Shown here in pieces: positions 17,989-23,243 of a stretch of 64,000 nt of DNA (within the stretch, counting starts at the first letter, position 1; each line of letters starts with the position of its first letter). Origin of the DNA: Acidobacteriota bacterium (GTDB taxonomy: Bacteria; Acidobacteriota; Terriglobia; Bryobacterales; Bryobacteraceae); contig JANXXI010000005.1 in assembly GCA_025350695.1 (NCBI GenBank), positions 1-64,000 of the forward strand. The letters run 5' to 3'. Position numbers and translations under genes: made by a program. Under the pieces are notes generated by a model that saw only the letters and a program-made list of their open reading frames with translations, did not search any database and was not told the origin of the DNA.

Positions 17989-18006
17989 TTAGACAACTCC
18001 AGTATA

Positions 18007-18034
18007 TTAGTCCTGGTTTGTCCTAGTTGGTCCT
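18007..18034 (-). promoter_or_regulatory. Three phased repeats upstream of the broken zinc-ribbon gene
   Basis: On the plus strand TTNGTCCT occurs three times at exactly 10-base spacing (18007, 18017, 18027). On the minus strand this reads AGGACNAA repeated, just upstream of the gene starting at 17988. One-turn phasing suggests a protein-binding array; the protein is unknown. Confidence 0.35.
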
Positions 18035-18174
18035 GTTTATTTTTGCCCTTGCCTTTAAGAACGATAAAATACATCATCATGTTGTTCACCGTGTGCGATA
18101 AAATCAGACACCGTGAGGCCATGGACAAGATAAGCGATTTCGGACTCGTACGGTTTTTCGACTCCCCACCGCCC

Positions 18175-18540
18175 TCACACCTCAATCTATCCCATTTTCA
18201 ACCACTTAACCACCAACCAAATCCCAAAACCCTTGCCCCCGCATACTATCCTTATCACAGAGAGCGAATCCGGGCCCGGTCTACTCTTCAAACCAAAACC
18301 CCTCCCGCACGGGAGGCGGTCTCAGGTCGATCTGGGTTGTTCGCAATACGCAAAGGTCGGGGTTGCCCCGCGTCGAATCACTTGAAAACGGCATTGGTTG
18401 GGGAGGCTTGTGGAAGGATGCAAATGGACGCAATTGTGCCTCAAGCGGGTGCGATGTTTTTTGGATGTTGCGCGGGTGGGGCTGCTTTGCGTTTCAACTT
18501 GATGATTGCCCGCCCAAGGCAACTGGCCTGATATGTCAGA
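18175..18540 (+). repeat. Copy 1 of a duplicated segment (upstream part)
   Basis: This stretch matches 19985-20340. Shared blocks include the Pro-codon-like 'cttgcccccgc', 'agagcgaatccgggcccgg', a hairpin region, and an identical 28-base block at 18376-18403 that recurs at 20158-20185. After that block, copy 1 continues in the opposite orientation relative to copy 2 as far as the word 'aaggcaactggcctgat' (18518-18534). The homology then runs on into a fragment of the cysteine-synthase coding sequence. Frames crossing it (e.g. 18043-18531) are not protein-like. Confidence 0.85.
18246..18402 (+). ncRNA. Candidate structured RNA, copy 1
   Basis: Three consecutive hairpins: CCTCCC-GCAC-GGGAGG (18301-18316), CTCAGGTCGATCTGGG (18321-18336) and CGGGG-TTG-CCCCG (18358-18370), then the conserved 28-base block. 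The stems differ in sequence from copy 2 at 20038-20186 yet still pair. Orientation as an RNA is assumed from the intact copy, which lies upstream of the cysteine operon. Known class not identified. Confidence 0.4.
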
Positions 18541-18696
18541 CTGGCGGCGGCCGCCATCGGCAACACCCCGCTGCTCAAGCTCGAACGGATTGCCGAGGAC
18601 CTCCCAGGCATCGAAATCTACGCTAAGGCCGAATACTTCAACCCTGGCGGCTCAGACATCGTCCCGCCCATTTACGACGATAATGCCTTAGTCTAG
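18541..18696 (+). pseudogene. Cysteine synthase fragment with internal deletion
   Basis: The reading frame gives Ile-Gly-Asn-Thr-Pro-Leu-Leu-Lys-Leu-Glu-Arg-Ile, then 'EDLPGIEIYAKAEYFNPGGS'. It is joined in frame to Asp-Ile-Val-Pro-Pro-Ile-Tyr-Asp and ends at TAG 18694-18696. The two parts match residues ~21-53 and ~233-239 of the intact synthase at 20417-21370, so about 180 codons including the PLP lysine are gone. There is no start codon in frame (TGA precedes it). It is an ancient, diverged partial copy and not functional. Confidence 0.9.
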
Positions 18697-18745
18697 CCAG
18701 CATCAGACTGCAAAGCCGGTGTAGCATGGTCTTCGGAGCCTTACG

Positions 18746-18952
18746 TTGAACGAAATCATATTCCTAGTCGAAGACGCACCCGAAGGCGGCCTTTCCGCGA
18801 GGGCGCTTGGGCACTCGATTTTCACTGCGGCTGACTCCGAACAGGAACTCCAAGCTATGGTGAAGGATGCGGTAGCCTGCCATTTTGATGAGGGCGAGGC
18901 CCCCAAGCTCATTAGGCTGCATTACGTTCGCGAAGAAGTGATTCAGGCATGA
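18746..18952 (+). CDS. hicB: HicB-like antitoxin (short form)
   Basis: 68 residues, started by TTG at 18746 with GGAG at 18735-18738. The sequence (Ile-Phe-Leu-Val-Glu-Asp-Ala-Pro-Glu-Gly-Gly-Leu-Ser-Ala-Arg-Ala-Leu, then 'HFDEGEAPKLIRLHYVREEV') is the degraded-RNase-H fold of the short HicB proteins that accompany HicA; it lacks a separate DNA-binding domain. It overlaps the toxin start by ATGA, the standard arrangement. The two genes sit between the two copies of the duplicated segment. Confidence 0.8.
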   Translation: MNEIIFLVEDAPEGGLSARALGHSIFTAADSEQELQAMVKDAVACHFDEGEAPKLIRLHYVREEVIQA

Positions 18953-19188
18953 AGCTTCCCAGGGACTTGAGCGGCGGCGACTTGGTCCGGGCGCTAAAAC
19001 GCCTCGGCTACAAACAGACGCGCCAAACAGGCAGCCACGTACGAATGACGATTTCCGCCCCTCGCCAAGCGCATCTGACCGTTCCTCTCACTCGGGCGAT
19101 ACCAGCGGGAACTCTTGCGGCCCTGATCAAGGACGCGGCAATCCACTTGGAGACGACCGTTGATGATATCTTGAGCAGGATCCGTTGA
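18949..19188 (+). CDS. hicA: HicA mRNA interferase toxin
   Basis: 79 residues, normal for HicA. It is a small dsRBD-like fold with 'SGGDLVRALKRLGYKQTRQTGSHVRM', where the Gly-Ser-His (His30) carries the catalytic histidine, followed by 'HLTVPLTRAIPAGTLAALIKDA'. It cleaves mRNA when not bound by the upstream HicB. The 4-base overlap with hicB implies coupled translation. No frameshift or stop is present, so the module is probably intact. Confidence 0.88.
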   Translation: MKLPRDLSGGDLVRALKRLGYKQTRQTGSHVRMTISAPRQAHLTVPLTRAIPAGTLAALIKDAAIHLETTVDDILSRIR

Positions 19189-19280
19189 CAGAAGCGCGCT
19201 GTTGCCCCCGAGCACCAGCGAACCATTGAAAAAGAGAGAATCGAACGTGGCTTAACAATTTCCAGGAACTACGCGCGAGG

Positions 19281-19556
19281 TTGTCCGCCACAGCTCGGGC
19301 GGCGAGCGAGACGGAGCATCGCGGATTGATCGAGGAGATGTCCCTGCATCAGTTGAGGAAGGCCCGTGAATTGACGCAGACCAAGATGGCCGAGGACCTC
19401 CACATGGGGCTGGGCGATGTGTCCAAACTGGAGCGCCGCAACGATGTGTATGTCAGCACGCTCGGCAGCTACCTTCAAGCCGTGGGCGCAGACCTCGATA
19501 TTCGCGCGGTATTTCCCGACGGGAGAGCCGTGAAGATCACGCAGTTCTCCGAATAG
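19281..19556 (+). CDS. XRE-family antitoxin-like regulator, start damaged or unusual
   Basis: The C-terminal ~75 residues form a HigA/XRE helix-turn-helix ('LHQLRKARELTQTKMAEDLHMGLGDVSKLERRNDVYVSTLGSYLQAVGADLDI'). Homologous character already begins at about 19254 with Asn-Asn-Phe-Gln-Glu-Leu-Arg-Ala-Arg-Leu, but that frame has no ATG or GTG after the TGA at 19227. The only usable start is TTG 19281, which would remove the N-terminal helix. The usual toxin partner is absent on both sides. It is either an orphan antitoxin or a gene that has lost its start codon and partner. Confidence 0.65.
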   Translation: MSATARAASETEHRGLIEEMSLHQLRKARELTQTKMAEDLHMGLGDVSKLERRNDVYVSTLGSYLQAVGADLDIRAVFPDGRAVKITQFSE

Positions 19557-19984
19557 GATTTTCGCAGGTACTTGGTCGCTCCGTGATGGATTGTTCTCTG
19601 GTCAACCGACATCGAGGCTCAAGGATTGCATGGGCTGAAACTTCTGCGCAGTTAGCCGGGAACGGTTTTATCTAGGCAGTCAAAGTTTGGAGGACAGTTG
19701 CGACAACTCGCCCCTCTGCAAAACGTGTAACATTGGACAAAGCACAAAATGGAATATTCTGAGGACCCAAAAAATCTGGTCTCCTTGCTCTCATTTTGAC
19801 ATGTTGGGAAAGAGTGTTCTCTGTAGGACGGCTAATGCAAGCGGCATTCAATCGCCCATCCTCCTGGATTCATGGTACCGAGACCACTTTGACTATGCCT
19901 TGACCTCAGGGGCGGATGCCACGTTTTACCTCACCGCCAAAACCCCCGTCCCCATCCACTCAAAAACTAAACCCATAACAATCT
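19557..19984. other. Non-coding stretch between the antitoxin and repeat copy 2
   Basis: No gene that I can support. A 102-codon open frame at 19687-19995 has no domain character or ribosome-binding site, and its end runs into the repeat. The base composition is more AT-rich than in neighbouring genes, as expected for decayed or foreign DNA. Confidence 0.5.
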
Positions 19985-20037
19985 CAACCACTTGAAATTC
20001 CCCACGTCTGAATCCCCTTGCCCCCACGCGCTACCTT

Positions 20038-20186
20038 AATTCCAGAGAGCGAATCCGGGCCCGGACTACTCTTCAAACGAAAACCGCACTCCGCAAGGAG
20101 TCCGGTCTCGAATCGATCCGAGTTATTACACACAGCAAAAGCGGGGGAGCCCGCGCAGAATCACTTGAAAACGGCATTGGTTGGGT
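20038..20186 (+). ncRNA. Candidate structured RNA, copy 2
   Basis: Hairpins ACTCC-GCAA-GGAGT (20088-20101), CTCGAATCGATCCGAG (20107-20122) and GCGGG-GGAG-CCCGC (20141-20154) precede the 28-base conserved block. In the second hairpin an A-U pair of copy 1 is a G-C pair here, and a U-G pair is U-A. The first hairpin shares little sequence with copy 1 but forms in both. It lies upstream of a separate strong promoter for the cysteine operon, so it may be an independent RNA or an upstream leader. Confidence 0.4.
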
Positions 20187-20340
20187 GAACCAGCGCCGTC
20201 AGCCTGACAAATCAGGCCAGTTGCCTTGGCCGGCAATCATCAAGTTGGAGCGCAAAACTCCCCCGCCAGCGCTAAATTTAGGAAAACGAATGCATCCGCT
20301 GGCGGCACAACTGCGCCCACTTGCATCCTTACCCAACCCA
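20177..20340. repeat. Segment bounded by 10-bp inverted repeats, inverted relative to copy 1
   Basis: The left repeat TTGGTTGGGT (20177-20186) and right repeat ACCCAACCCA (20331-20340) are inverted with one mismatch. The ~145 bp between them are in opposite orientation to the homologous part of copy 1, where the left repeat survives at 18394-18403. Inside are a perfect 9-bp inverted repeat (CCGCCAGCG 20263-20271 with CGCTGGCGG 20297-20305) and the palindrome CTAAATTTAG. No recombinase gene is in the window. Confidence 0.6.
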
Positions 20341-20380
20341 CTCTCATCTTAAAAAGGAAAAGGTCCTATACATACCATTC

Positions 20381-20409
20381 TTGACTGACATGCACCAGCT
20401 TCCTACAAT
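20381..20409 (+). promoter_or_regulatory. Promoter of the cysteine operon
   Basis: TTGACT (20381-20386), a 17-base spacer and TACAAT (20404-20409). The expected transcription start is at about 20416-20417, at or one base before the ATG at 20417, so the mRNA would be leaderless or nearly so. This also supports 20417 over the upstream in-frame ATGs. Confidence 0.65.
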
Positions 20410-20416
20410 CAAAACT

Positions 20417-21370
20417 ATGCACGCCTCCCTCACCAAGCCCCGAGCCACCCCCGCCGCCGGGTCCCTGCTTGCCTCCATCGGCAACACCCCGCTGCTCAAG
20501 CTCGAACGCATGGCCGAGGACCTCCCTGGCATCGAAATCTACGCCAAAGCCGAATACTTCAACCCCGGCGGCTCCGTCAAGGATCGCCCCGCCCTCAACA
20601 TGATCCTCAAAGGCGAACAGTCCGGCGCGCTCACGCCCGATAAAATCATCATCGACGCCACCAGCGGCAACACCGGCATCGCCTACGCTATGATCGCCGC
20701 CGCCAAGGGCTATAAGGTGAAGCTCTGCCTGCCTGAAAACGCCTCGCCCGAACGTAAGAAAATTCTCGCCGCTTACGGAGCCGAACTCGTCTTGACACCC
20801 GGTGGCGAAGGTTCCGACGGGGCCATTCGCACCGTCCAAAAAATAGTCGCCGCCGACCCTCACCGTTATTTCTACCCCGATCAATACGGCAACCCCGCCA
20901 ACTGGCAAGCTCATTACGAAGGAACAGGCCTTGAAATCTTGGCCCAAACCGAAGAGCGCATCACGCACTTCATCGCCGCCCTCGGCACCAGCGGCACCTT
21001 CATGGGATGCACCCGCCGCTTCAACGATAGCTTGCCCCACGTCACCTGCATCTCAGCCCAACCCGCAACTGGCTTCCACGGTCTTGAAGGGTTGAAGCAC
21101 ATGCCCACGGCCATCGTGCCGCCCATTTACGATGCCACTCTCGCCGACGAAAATTTGTGGATCGAAACCGAAGACGCCTATAAAATGGTCAAGCGGCTAG
21201 CCCGCGAAGAGGGCATCTTAGTCGGCATCTCCGCCGGAGCCAATGTCCACGCCTCGCTCAAAATCGGCAAGCGTCTGGCCGACCAAGGCAAGTCCGGGGT
21301 ACTGGTAACCATCCTCTGCGATGGCGCCGACAAATACTTGAGCGAGCACTTCTGGTCCGACCCCAGCTAA
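20417..21370 (+). CDS. cysM: PLP-dependent cysteine synthase (CysK/CysM family)
   Basis: 317 residues from ATG 20417, chosen from the promoter position and homology. Type-II PLP fold: Lys55 in Gly-Gly-Ser-Val-Lys-Asp is the PLP lysine, Ser-Gly-Asn-Thr-Gly (83-87) binds the substrate carboxylate, Gly-Thr-Ser-Gly-Thr (190-194) holds the phosphate, and Gly-Ile-Ser-Ala-Gly-Ala (270-275) is the C-terminal motif. The three following genes encode a JAMM protease, a ThiS-like sulfur carrier and an E1-rhodanese. This is the gene set of the CysO pathway of Mycobacterium, so the sulfur donor is probably the carrier thiocarboxylate and the substrate perhaps O-phosphoserine; that specificity is inferred. 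Fragments of a paralogue lie at 18541. Confidence 0.9.
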   Translation: MHASLTKPRATPAAGSLLASIGNTPLLKLERMAEDLPGIEIYAKAEYFNPGGSVKDRPALNMILKGEQSGALTPDKIIIDATSGNTGIAYAMIAAAKGYKVKLCLPENASPERKKILAAYGAELVLTPGGEGSDGAIRTVQKIVAADPHRYFYPDQYGNPANWQAHYEGTGLEILAQTEERITHFIAALGTSGTFMGCTRRFNDSLPHVTCISAQPATGFHGLEGLKHMPTAIVPPIYDATLADENLWIETEDAYKMVKRLAREEGILVGISAGANVHASLKIGKRLADQGKSGVLVTILCDGADKYLSEHFWSDPS

Positions 21371-21385
21371 AATAGAAGCTTACGA

Positions 21386-21802
21386 ATGATTCAAATCGAA
21401 CCCGAAGCTTGGCAAGTCATGGTCTCCCATGCCAAGTCCACCTATCCCAACGAGTGCTGCGGCGCTATGATCGGAACTGTCGATGGCGACGTCAAGACCG
21501 TCAAGATCGGCCTAGCCATCGAAAACGCCTTCACCGGCGTGCAACATGAACGCTACGAACTGCGCCCCGAAGACCTCATGAAGGCCGACAAAGAGGCCCG
21601 CGCCCGTGGCATGGACCTCATCGGAATCTTCCACTCGCACCCCGATTGCGATGCCTATTTTTCCGAAACCGATTTGAAGAATTCCTGCCCCTGGTATTCC
21701 TTCGTCGTCCTGTCAATCTATAAAGGAGAGTTCCACCACGCGAACTCGTTCCTTCCCAACGCCGAACAAACCGAGGCCCCCAAAGAGGAGTTGAAATACT
21801 GA
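21386..21802 (+). CDS. mec: JAMM/Mov34 metallopeptidase (Mec+-like)
   Basis: 138 residues. The complete JAMM zinc motif is visible: Glu23 (Pro-Asn-Glu-Cys-Cys-Gly), His83-Ser-His85-Pro, seven residues, Ser93, two residues, Asp96. In Mycobacterium the homologue releases cysteine from the C-terminus of CysO. Here the neighbouring carrier also ends in Gly-Gly-Leu, so the enzyme may first trim the leucine, as QbsD does for QbsE in Pseudomonas; this is inference. Gap of 15 bases after the synthase; one transcript likely. Cytosolic, no signal peptide. Confidence 0.9.
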   Translation: MIQIEPEAWQVMVSHAKSTYPNECCGAMIGTVDGDVKTVKIGLAIENAFTGVQHERYELRPEDLMKADKEARARGMDLIGIFHSHPDCDAYFSETDLKNSCPWYSFVVLSIYKGEFHHANSFLPNAEQTEAPKEELKY

Positions 21803-21806
21803 TTTT

Positions 21807-22082
21807 ATGGCGAAAATTTTGATCCCGACGCCCTTGCGTCAATACGTAGACAAGAAGGATTCCGTGGACGTCACCGGCGCAACCGTTGGCGAGGCGCTCA
21901 ATGCCCTAACCACTGCCCATCCCGACTTGAAGAAGAACCTGTACAACGATGAAGGCAAGCTGCGAAGCTTCGTCAACATCTACTTGAACGACGAAGATAT
22001 TCGTTACATGAAGAAGGAATCGACGCCGCTCGCGGACTCCGACACGATCTCCATCGTCCCCAGCATTGCCGGAGGCCTTTAA
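21807..22082 (+). CDS. cysO: ThiS/MoaD-like sulfur carrier (CysO-type) with masked C-terminus
   Basis: 91 residues with a beta-grasp fold: 'ILIPTPLRQYVDKKDSVDV', 'GEALNALTTAHPDLKKNLYNDEGKLRSFVNIYLNDEDIRYM', and the tail Val-Pro-Ser-Ile-Ala-Gly-Gly-Leu. Carriers activated by an E1 enzyme need a free Gly-Gly end. Here one leucine codon (CTT) follows before the TAA at 22080-22082, so the end must be trimmed or the family tolerates it. It would be adenylated and thiocarboxylated by the next gene's product and give sulfur to the synthase. Four bases separate it from the protease gene. Confidence 0.9.
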   Translation: MAKILIPTPLRQYVDKKDSVDVTGATVGEALNALTTAHPDLKKNLYNDEGKLRSFVNIYLNDEDIRYMKKESTPLADSDTISIVPSIAGGL

Positions 22083-22085
22083 CTC

Positions 22086-23243
22086 ATGGTCAAGCAGCTT
22101 CTGCCTGAAGAAATTCAACGCTACAGCCGCCATTTAATCCTGCCCGAAGTCGGCATGGAAGGCCAAATAAAACTGAAGAATTCCAGCGTGCTTCTGGTCG
22201 GTACCGGCGGCCTCGGCGCACCTCTCGGCTTGTACCTCGCCGCTGCCGGCATCGGCAAAATCGGCCTCGTAGATTTCGATGTCGTCGATTTCTCCAACCT
22301 CCAGCGCCAGATTATCCACGGCACCAAGGACGTCGGTCGCAAGAAGCTCGATTCAGCCGCCGACTCGATGCTCGACATCAATCCGCACCTGGAAATCGTC
22401 AAGTACGAAGTGGCGTTGACCAGCGACAATGCGCTGGACATCATCAAGGATTACGACGTAGTGGCCGACGGCACCGACAACTTCCCCACCCGCTACCTGG
22501 TGAACGATGCCTGCGTACTGCTCGGCAAACCGAACGCGTACGGTTCCATCTTCCGCTTCGAAGGCCAAGCCTCTGTCTTCGGTTACCAGGACGGCCCCTG
22601 CTACCGTTGCCTATATCCCGAACCACCGCCCCCCGGCCTCGTTCCCAGTTGCGCCGAAGGTGGCGTGCTCGGAATTCTACCCGGCATCATCGGCGTCATG
22701 CAAGCCACGGAAGTGGTGAAGCTGCTGCTCGGAATCGGCACAACGCTCAAGGGCCGCCTGCTACTCTACGACGCCTTGAACATGAAGTTCCGCGAATTGA
22801 AGCTCCGCCGGAACCCCGAATGCCCCATCTGCGGCGACCACCGTACGATCACCAAGCTGATCGATTACCAGCAATTCTGCGGCATAATGCCCGAAGCCCC
22901 ACCACCCAGCGCGGAGGAAAAGAAGATGACCGACATTTCACCAAAGCAGGTAAAGGAACGCATCGACCGGAAAGACAATTTCATCCTCATCGACGTTCGC
23001 GAACCACATGAGTACCAGATCTGCAGCATTCCAACAGCGAAGCTGATCCCGCTTGGCGAACTTCCCAAGCACTTAAGCGAACTCGACCCGAACGCCGATT
23101 ACGTAATGCATTGCAAAGGCGGAGGCCGCAGCGCCAAAGCCTGCGAACTGATGCGTGCATCAGGCTTCAAGACCGTACTGAACATGACCGGCGGAATCGG
23201 ATCGTGGAGTGATCAAGTAGATCCCTCAGTTCCAAAGTATTGA
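22086..23243 (+). CDS. moeZ: E1-like adenylyltransferase/sulfurtransferase (MoeZ/MoeB with rhodanese)
   Basis: 385 residues. Residues 1-265 form a ThiF/MoeB domain: ATP loop Gly-Thr-Gly-Gly-Leu-Gly (39-44), Asp63/Asp65 region, the Ser-Asn-Leu-Gln-Arg-Gln segment, zinc cysteines 172/175 and 246/249, and conserved Cys189 in Pro-Ser-Cys-Ala-Glu-Gly-Gly. Residues ~285-385 are a rhodanese domain with active Cys343 in the loop Cys-Lys-Gly-Gly-Gly-Arg-Ser. It adenylates the carrier's C-terminus and converts it to a thiocarboxylate. This fusion is what MoeZ does for CysO in Mycobacterium. It could also serve MoaD or ThiS elsewhere in the genome. Last gene of the operon, three bases after cysO. Confidence 0.93.
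   Translation: MVKQLLPEEIQRYSRHLILPEVGMEGQIKLKNSSVLLVGTGGLGAPLGLYLAAAGIGKIGLVDFDVVDFSNLQRQIIHGTKDVGRKKLDSAADSMLDINPHLEIVKYEVALTSDNALDIIKDYDVVADGTDNFPTRYLVNDACVLLGKPNAYGSIFRFEGQASVFGYQDGPCYRCLYPEPPPPGLVPSCAEGGVLGILPGIIGVMQATEVVKLLLGIGTTLKGRLLLYDALNMKFRELKLRRNPECPICGDHRTITKLIDYQQFCGIMPEAPPPSAEEKKMTDISPKQVKERIDRKDNFILIDVREPHEYQICSIPTAKLIPLGELPKHLSELDPNADYVMHCKGGGRSAKACELMRASGFKTVLNMTGGIGSWSDQVDPSVPKY

Follow-up and report, generated by a model that had tools for sequence, protein, structure and literature searches.

The group that E1 enzymes adenylate is the C-terminal glycine carboxylate of the carrier (accessible text of PMC3227635), and a sulfur carrier masked by further residues should therefore be inert until it is cut. 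Capped carriers of this kind are described for Streptomyces platensis, in which PtmS2 and PtmS3 have MV or C after Gly-Gly, and in which deletion of the JAMM gene, PtmS1, or of the E1-like gene abolishes thioacid formation (available part of PMC6006322). Iyer et al. (2006) list a type 4c operon for the Acidobacteria under the label 'Susi', and propose JAB cleavage of other fused ThiS/MoaD proteins (available part of PMC1779556). The principle of a capped carrier with a dedicated JAMM protease is already known, both from QbsE/QbsD and from Streptomyces PtmS1. QbsD of Pseudomonas reportedly removes two residues from QbsE. The initial annotation of the locus described here had proposed that a single JAMM could both mature a carrier and release cysteine from it, in a combined use of two known JAMM roles; such a combination is not wholly new, given the capped carriers and single JAMM, PtmS1, of S. 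platensis (accessible text of PMC6006322).

The carrier gene and its neighbours

Within the window (the whole stretch of acidobacterial DNA analysed, 64,000 nucleotides), a sulfur carrier gene lies in the gene order cysM, JAMM protease, carrier, MoeZ-like E1-rhodanese (Table 1). The carrier C-terminus reads ...SIVPSIAGG-L-stop, encoded by GGA GGC CTT TAA at 22071-22082 (stop codon at 22080-22082), which bears out the earlier claim that it ends in Gly-Gly-Leu. The carrier also scores 62.2 bits against the NCBIfam SAMP1 model (cut-off 60), and its best PDB match is the 90-residue ThiS/MoaD chain 4n6e, covering carrier residues 4-90, followed by M. tuberculosis CysO (3dwg chain C); both PDB chains stop at the second Gly. 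A sequencing error was considered as the source of Leu91 and rejected, as GGR-stop is read in a genome of the same genus (G072) and one-residue tails occur in 41 unique loci.

Table 1 Features of the carrier operon in the window, and of a related element found elsewhere
Feature	Position	Strand	Evidence
cysM-like PLP cysteine synthase	20417..21370	+	PALP 231 bits; start uncertain (ATG 20417 or 20390)
JAMM/MPN+ metalloprotease (Mec-, QbsD-, PtmS1-like)	21386..21802	+	PF14464 (Prok-JAB) 83.9 bits
JAMM motif H83-S-H85-x7-S93-x2-D96	21632..21673	+	read from sequence
CysO-like sulfur carrier, 91 aa, ThiS/ubiquitin-like fold	21807..22082	+	PF02597 (ThiS family) 52.4 bits, cut-off 22.5; PDB 4n6e, 3dwg_C
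Gly89-Gly90, predicted working C-terminus	22071..22076	+	GGA 22071-22073, GGC 22074-22076; AGG invariant, 257/257 JAMM-adjacent readable loci
Leu91 codon (CTT), putative masking residue	22077..22079	+	read from sequence
MoeZ/MoeB-like E1 (ThiF) with C-terminal rhodanese	22086..23243	+	ThiF 276.5 bits, Rhodanese 65.8 bits
RCIC[S/R/T]-stop + hairpin	outside window: loci L330, L334, L339, L348, L349, L355, L410-L439		

The JAMM protease that had been named as the carrier's neighbour was likewise confirmed, with a Prok-JAB match and a complete E and H-S-H-x7-S-x2-D motif, in which the catalytic Glu would be E23. Its best PDB match is 2kcq, among uncharacterised JAMM structures, and of 211 aligned JAMM rows 210 have the complete motif, the remaining row ending at a contig end. 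The window carrier resembles the capped carriers with a JAMM in having a residue after Gly-Gly and a motif-intact JAMM clustered with it. Upstream, the cysM-like gene scores 350.1 bits with TIGR01136 cysKM (above its cut-off of 344.15) and 353.8 with TIGR01138 cysM (below its cut-off of 394.2), with E. coli CysM as the best of its CysM/CysK matches in the PDB. Downstream, the E1 opens with an ATG at 22086, just past the carrier stop, and comprises ThiF at residues 13-247 and Rhodanese at 285-376; MoeZ/MoeB models also match, as do Uba4 and E. coli MoeB in the PDB, and the protein is predicted to activate and thiolate the carrier. ThiS/MoaD, E1 with rhodanese, JAB and cysteine synthase together complete the type 4c set in the window; the 'Susi' of that listing we take to be Solibacter usitatus.

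These same matches could be read as a ubiquitin-like protein modification system, in which E1 conjugates the carrier to proteins, the JAMM both matures it and later strips it off again, and cysteine synthesis is secondary. The carrier is above the SAMP1 cut-off, the JAMM resembles desampylase (58.8 bits, below the model's cut-off of 130), and in the prediction of Iyer et al. E1-JAB operons work through a thioester and lysine transfer (available part of PMC1779556). However, a cysM match adjoins the carrier in 135 of the 150 order loci described below, and the E1 has a rhodanese domain, a feature of sulfur relay; we regard protein modification as highly improbable.

Rfam had no match in the whole window, nor separately in 18000-20500, and an nhmmer search of the region upstream of the operon (window 19990-20420) against the collected loci returned only a second cut of the same genome. 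Part of the cysM start, with the sequence upstream of it, recurs in decayed form at window positions 18217-18690, where 109 nt are 92% identical to 20471-20579 and further stretches of 84 nt (80%) and 36 nt (94%) match.

The source genome (G000, 7.19 Mb) encodes four ThiS-family proteins, the window carrier included. Its ThiS ends GGG-stop and its separate MoaD GG-stop, so neither has a non-Gly residue after Gly-Gly, while a MoaD-MoaE fusion reads ...PPVSGG-SGPW.... This fusion, present here and in most relatives examined, is another Gly-Gly-Xaa junction needing cutting. A single Prok-JAB match in the genome exceeds the cut-off, and it is the window JAMM. DRJAMM of Deinococcus radiodurans cleaves a MoaD-MoaE fusion (available part of PMC8832034) and, by analogy, the window JAMM may also free MoaD from MoaE.

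Residues beyond Gly-Gly in Bryobacterales and other bacteria

Across 200 genomes of the order Bryobacterales (part of Terriglobia), a carrier homologue was found in 177 and Prok-JAB in 191; comparison of the two lists placed a Prok-JAB match in 176 of the 177 carrier-bearing genomes, the exception (G193) having a weak carrier match (E 5.8e-4). We examined the 150 best matches of the 177 matching genomes, leaving L078, whose sequence stops before Gly-Gly, out of the end counts. All 149 readable carriers have at least one residue past Gly-Gly, and none reads GG-stop: 88 have short tails (R, L, GR, RC and AHVG, for example) and 61 are in-frame E1 fusions. A sample of named genomes gave the same picture, with residues past Gly-Gly in 80 of 80 carriers (the best 80 of 580 confirmed relatives); most of its titles name Bryobacterales or other Acidobacteria, and some MAG titles naming other groups may be wrong.

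We then compared carriers with and without a neighbouring JAMM, adjacency being defined as same strand and within about 1.6 kb, in 304 unique loci, mostly from Acidobacteriota, that remained once 35 duplicate rows had been removed from 339; L156 and L157 were likewise dropped as duplicates. Beside a JAMM (258 loci) there are 0 GG-stop carriers, 146 tails, 111 fusions and 1 carrier ending at a contig end; among the 46 loci with no adjacent JAMM there are 14 GG-stop carriers, 19 tails and 13 fusions (32 masked). As the phylum loci were partly hand-picked (top matches, paralogues), these proportions are not those of a random sample. The association between adjacency and GG-stop has a Fisher p of 5e-13 over related rows; the number of supported independent pairs is only three, which makes the independent-pairs sign test uninformative. 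As the JAMM profile was built from the window JAMM, it could overlook divergent JAMMs next to GG-stop carriers.

Some of the masked carriers lacking a nearby JAMM have identifiable settings. In five order genomes (G013, G029, G037, G098, G027; 5 masked) the JAMM is elsewhere in the genome, and some others sit near contig ends. A further 12 are paralogues in Acidobacteriaceae-like genomes: these second carriers (L243, L245-L255) are tailed, often with Cys first, and have no JAMM or E1 nearby.

Outside the phylum, eight loci from a plasmid collection were compared. JAMM and tail occur together in Aliarcobacter (GGI-stop) and Burkholderia multivorans (GGRS-stop), whereas Nonomuraea and Tsukamurella, both Actinomycetota, have a plain GG-stop beside an adjacent JAMM. 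In Piscinibacter and B. cenocepacia the carrier has a plain GG end, and a search for a JAMM found none; nor was one found in Streptomyces clavuligerus or Arthrobacter, whose carrier ends were not readable by the tail script. The Nonomuraea and Tsukamurella loci mean that a tail cannot be deduced from a neighbouring JAMM alone. The unmasking that the initial annotation had proposed is well supported by comparison of the mostly acidobacterial loci (0 of 258 JAMM-adjacent carriers GG-stop, 111 fusions). Homologues lacking the extra residue in an otherwise identical operon, which that annotation had set out as evidence against unmasking, are absent from the order (0 of 149 readable) but do occur outside the phylum, in these same two genera. 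Our counts suggest that making a sulfur carrier as a precursor can be the norm in much of a bacterial phylum. A literature search returned no earlier description of carrier-E1-rhodanese fusions of type 4c or of phylum-wide capping, which is no proof of absence.

Junction residues, E1 fusions and the origin of the tail

Fused and tailed carriers alike preserve P-x-x-A-G-G in 257 of 257 JAMM-adjacent readable loci, followed by many different residues at position +1. There is no obvious reason for Gly-Gly to be kept exactly inside fusions if the fused domain worked uncut. Proline at +1 would hinder cutting. It is found there in 0 of 124 fusions and 0 of 165 tails, yet makes up 18% of fusion linker positions +2 to +8 (counts over related rows, kinship included as is). 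In an AlphaFold2 model of one fused protein (L296; mean pLDDT 81), residues 87-97, comprising Gly-Gly and the linker, fall below 50, and the modelled carrier-E1 junction is flexible and accessible.

Fusion to E1 has arisen or been lost repeatedly: parsimony requires at least 31 switches between fused and tailed forms on a FastTree phylogeny of 262 rows, from which rows having no E1 within 700 bases or an E1 piece of <150 residues were left out. Fusions come in two domain orders, carrier-E1-rhodanese and, in five loci (L235, L240, L241, L263, L264), carrier-rhodanese-E1. Three further loci (L200 of G465, L063, L372) have JAMM and carrier in one open frame with no intervening stop; in L200 a single frame of 619 codons spans JAMM, carrier, E1 and rhodanese, and has internal ATGs, making single-protein translation uncertain.

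The fusions also bear on which enzyme would remove the tail. Tails of one and two residues are the commonest (41 and 46 of 146), and an exopeptidase could clip them, leaving the JAMM only to release cysteine from the carrier while a general carboxypeptidase or other protease does the trimming. However, in 111 of the 258 JAMM-adjacent unique loci Gly-Gly is followed by E1 and rhodanese sequence of more than 100 residues, whose removal is beyond an exopeptidase; these loci need an endoprotease, which rules out simple carboxypeptidase trimming, and the frequent interchange of fused and tailed forms on the tree counts against it as well. We consider trimming by such another protease very unlikely, and unmasking by the JAMM very likely, judging from gene neighbourhood and junction conservation.

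Tail sequence varies freely, with 88 distinct tails among the 146 unique JAMM-adjacent unfused loci, and this variety fits a reading in which the tail is a by-product of translational coupling. Where the E1 is a separate gene close by, the Gly-Gly codons contain GGAGG in 31 of 66 loci, compared with 22 of 124 among the fusions (Fisher p 3.5e-5); the Gly-Gly codons therefore probably double as the E1 ribosome-binding site, and in the window, where GGAGG lies at 22071-22075, they may do so too. This double use would loosen the position of the carrier stop codon: the Gly-Gly codons would act as Shine-Dalgarno sequence for E1, the stop would drift, the JAMM would tolerate the result, and masking would have no role of its own. 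Yet a stop directly past Gly-Gly gives the same spacing, and we have set aside the idea that Shine-Dalgarno spacing forces the tail. Tail length 0 is moreover seen in 0 of 146 loci, though in 35 of these the +1 codon is one substitution from a stop; with lengths 1 and 2 the most frequent, this gap hints that keeping one residue or more serves a purpose. An origin by coupling is possible, if on the doubtful side, and it still needs the tail to be removed; it concerns origin more than mechanism and is compatible with unmasking by the JAMM.

Proposed cycle, cysteine-rich tails and relation to known systems

We propose that translation yields an inactive carrier precursor with Leu91 after Gly-Gly, and that the JAMM encoded just upstream would cleave Gly90-Leu91, removing the single leucine and freeing the Gly-Gly carboxylate. 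The E1-rhodanese would adenylate and then thiolate the trimmed carrier, CysM would couple the carrier thiocarboxylate to activated serine, and the same JAMM would then release cysteine from the carrier, again at a Gly90-Xaa bond. We hold this scheme as a whole with good confidence. As both bonds are Gly-Xaa, one JAMM for both steps would be economical; cysteine release by the same JAMM is plausible, being consistent with the adjacent cysM, the single Prok-JAB of the genome and the shared type of bond. The scheme predicts that one small protease gates cysteine supply. If masking by E1 is true, the activating enzyme itself can be the mask, as ubiquitin is made fused to ribosomal proteins, and the carrier-E1 fusions offer natural substrates for studies of JAMM specificity.

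In some acidobacterial clades the tails are rich in cysteine where E1 is distant, with 60 Cys among 341 tail residues when the E1 start is >80 bases on, as compared to 9 among 197 when it is <=40. Against 200 dinucleotide shuffles of the carrier-E1 spacers, TGYTGY sites number 22 in 37 loci with long spacers (shuffled mean 7.5, maximum 15) and 0 in 100 loci with short spacers (shuffled mean 4.8). Poly-cysteine tails such as CCCCCCL precede a distant E1 in L203, L204, L205, L211, L216, L220, L331, L342 and L363; in L329 a separate short ORF, MHSLPSTTDRCCCCPACA, read by eye, lies directly 3' of the carrier instead.

In one Terriglobia family the carrier tail ends RCIC[S/R/T]-stop with a hairpin directly 3' (Table 1). 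A covariance model built from six loci matches 28 of 299 class genomes, all of this one family and 0 of them Bryobacterales. The alignment of matches has 31 rows, one of which is the hairpin of L411 matched in antisense. Of its 371 cells 96.2% pair, and 43 have changes on both sides as against a shuffled mean of 12.9 (0/500), a signal destroyed by sliding the partners; this alignment was fitted by the model and is hence biased towards the modelled structure. Free short ORFs ending RCIC[S/T] or RCTCS are also followed by this element, before cysteine synthase genes in L421, L432 and L439 and before a second carrier in L438. Rfam at the gathering threshold had no match in eight loci, five of them with the element, and the exact pattern TGTATCTGTAGNTAGCCTGG occurs in 0 of 297 phylum genomes, the covariance model having found the element in other genomes of the class. 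RCIC-stop and hairpin look like a candidate new cysteine-responsive leader or attenuator, grafted onto the carrier's removable tail; if so, translation of the mask senses the product of the cysteine pathway. That masking is selected and not just tolerated, with a zymogen-like carrier, one JAMM gating both ends of cysteine synthesis and, in this family, a leader tail of cysteine codons sensing the product, is an idea we advance only tentatively.

Among related systems, PtmS2/PtmS3 with PtmS1 share one or two residues past Gly-Gly and a JAMM gene clustered with PtmS2; there, sulfur goes to thioplatensimycin and thioplatencin, and the accessible text of PMC6006322 mentions no carrier-E1 fusion. 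QbsE/QbsD of thioquinolobactin synthesis also has a protease that exposes a Gly-Gly end (as cited by the available part of PMC6006322), but belongs to a siderophore pathway. The type 4c operon has the same ThiS/MoaD, E1 with rhodanese, JAB and cysteine synthase, whereas neither tails nor carrier-E1 fusions are described in the available part of PMC1779556. DRJAMM likewise frees a sulfur carrier from a fusion and leaves it with a C-terminal Gly, the partner being MoaE rather than E1 and the product molybdenum cofactor rather than cysteine (available part of PMC8832034). In gene content, CysO-Mec-CysM of M. tuberculosis is alike in its carrier, JAMM, CysM and MoeZ-type E1, and in a protease that releases cysteine (accessible text of PMC3227635). 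Because the CysO chain already ends in Gly-Gly, unmasking is unnecessary in M. tuberculosis, whereas the window carrier has Leu91 after it; once trimmed, the window carrier may work like CysO, though the two are not identical in form.
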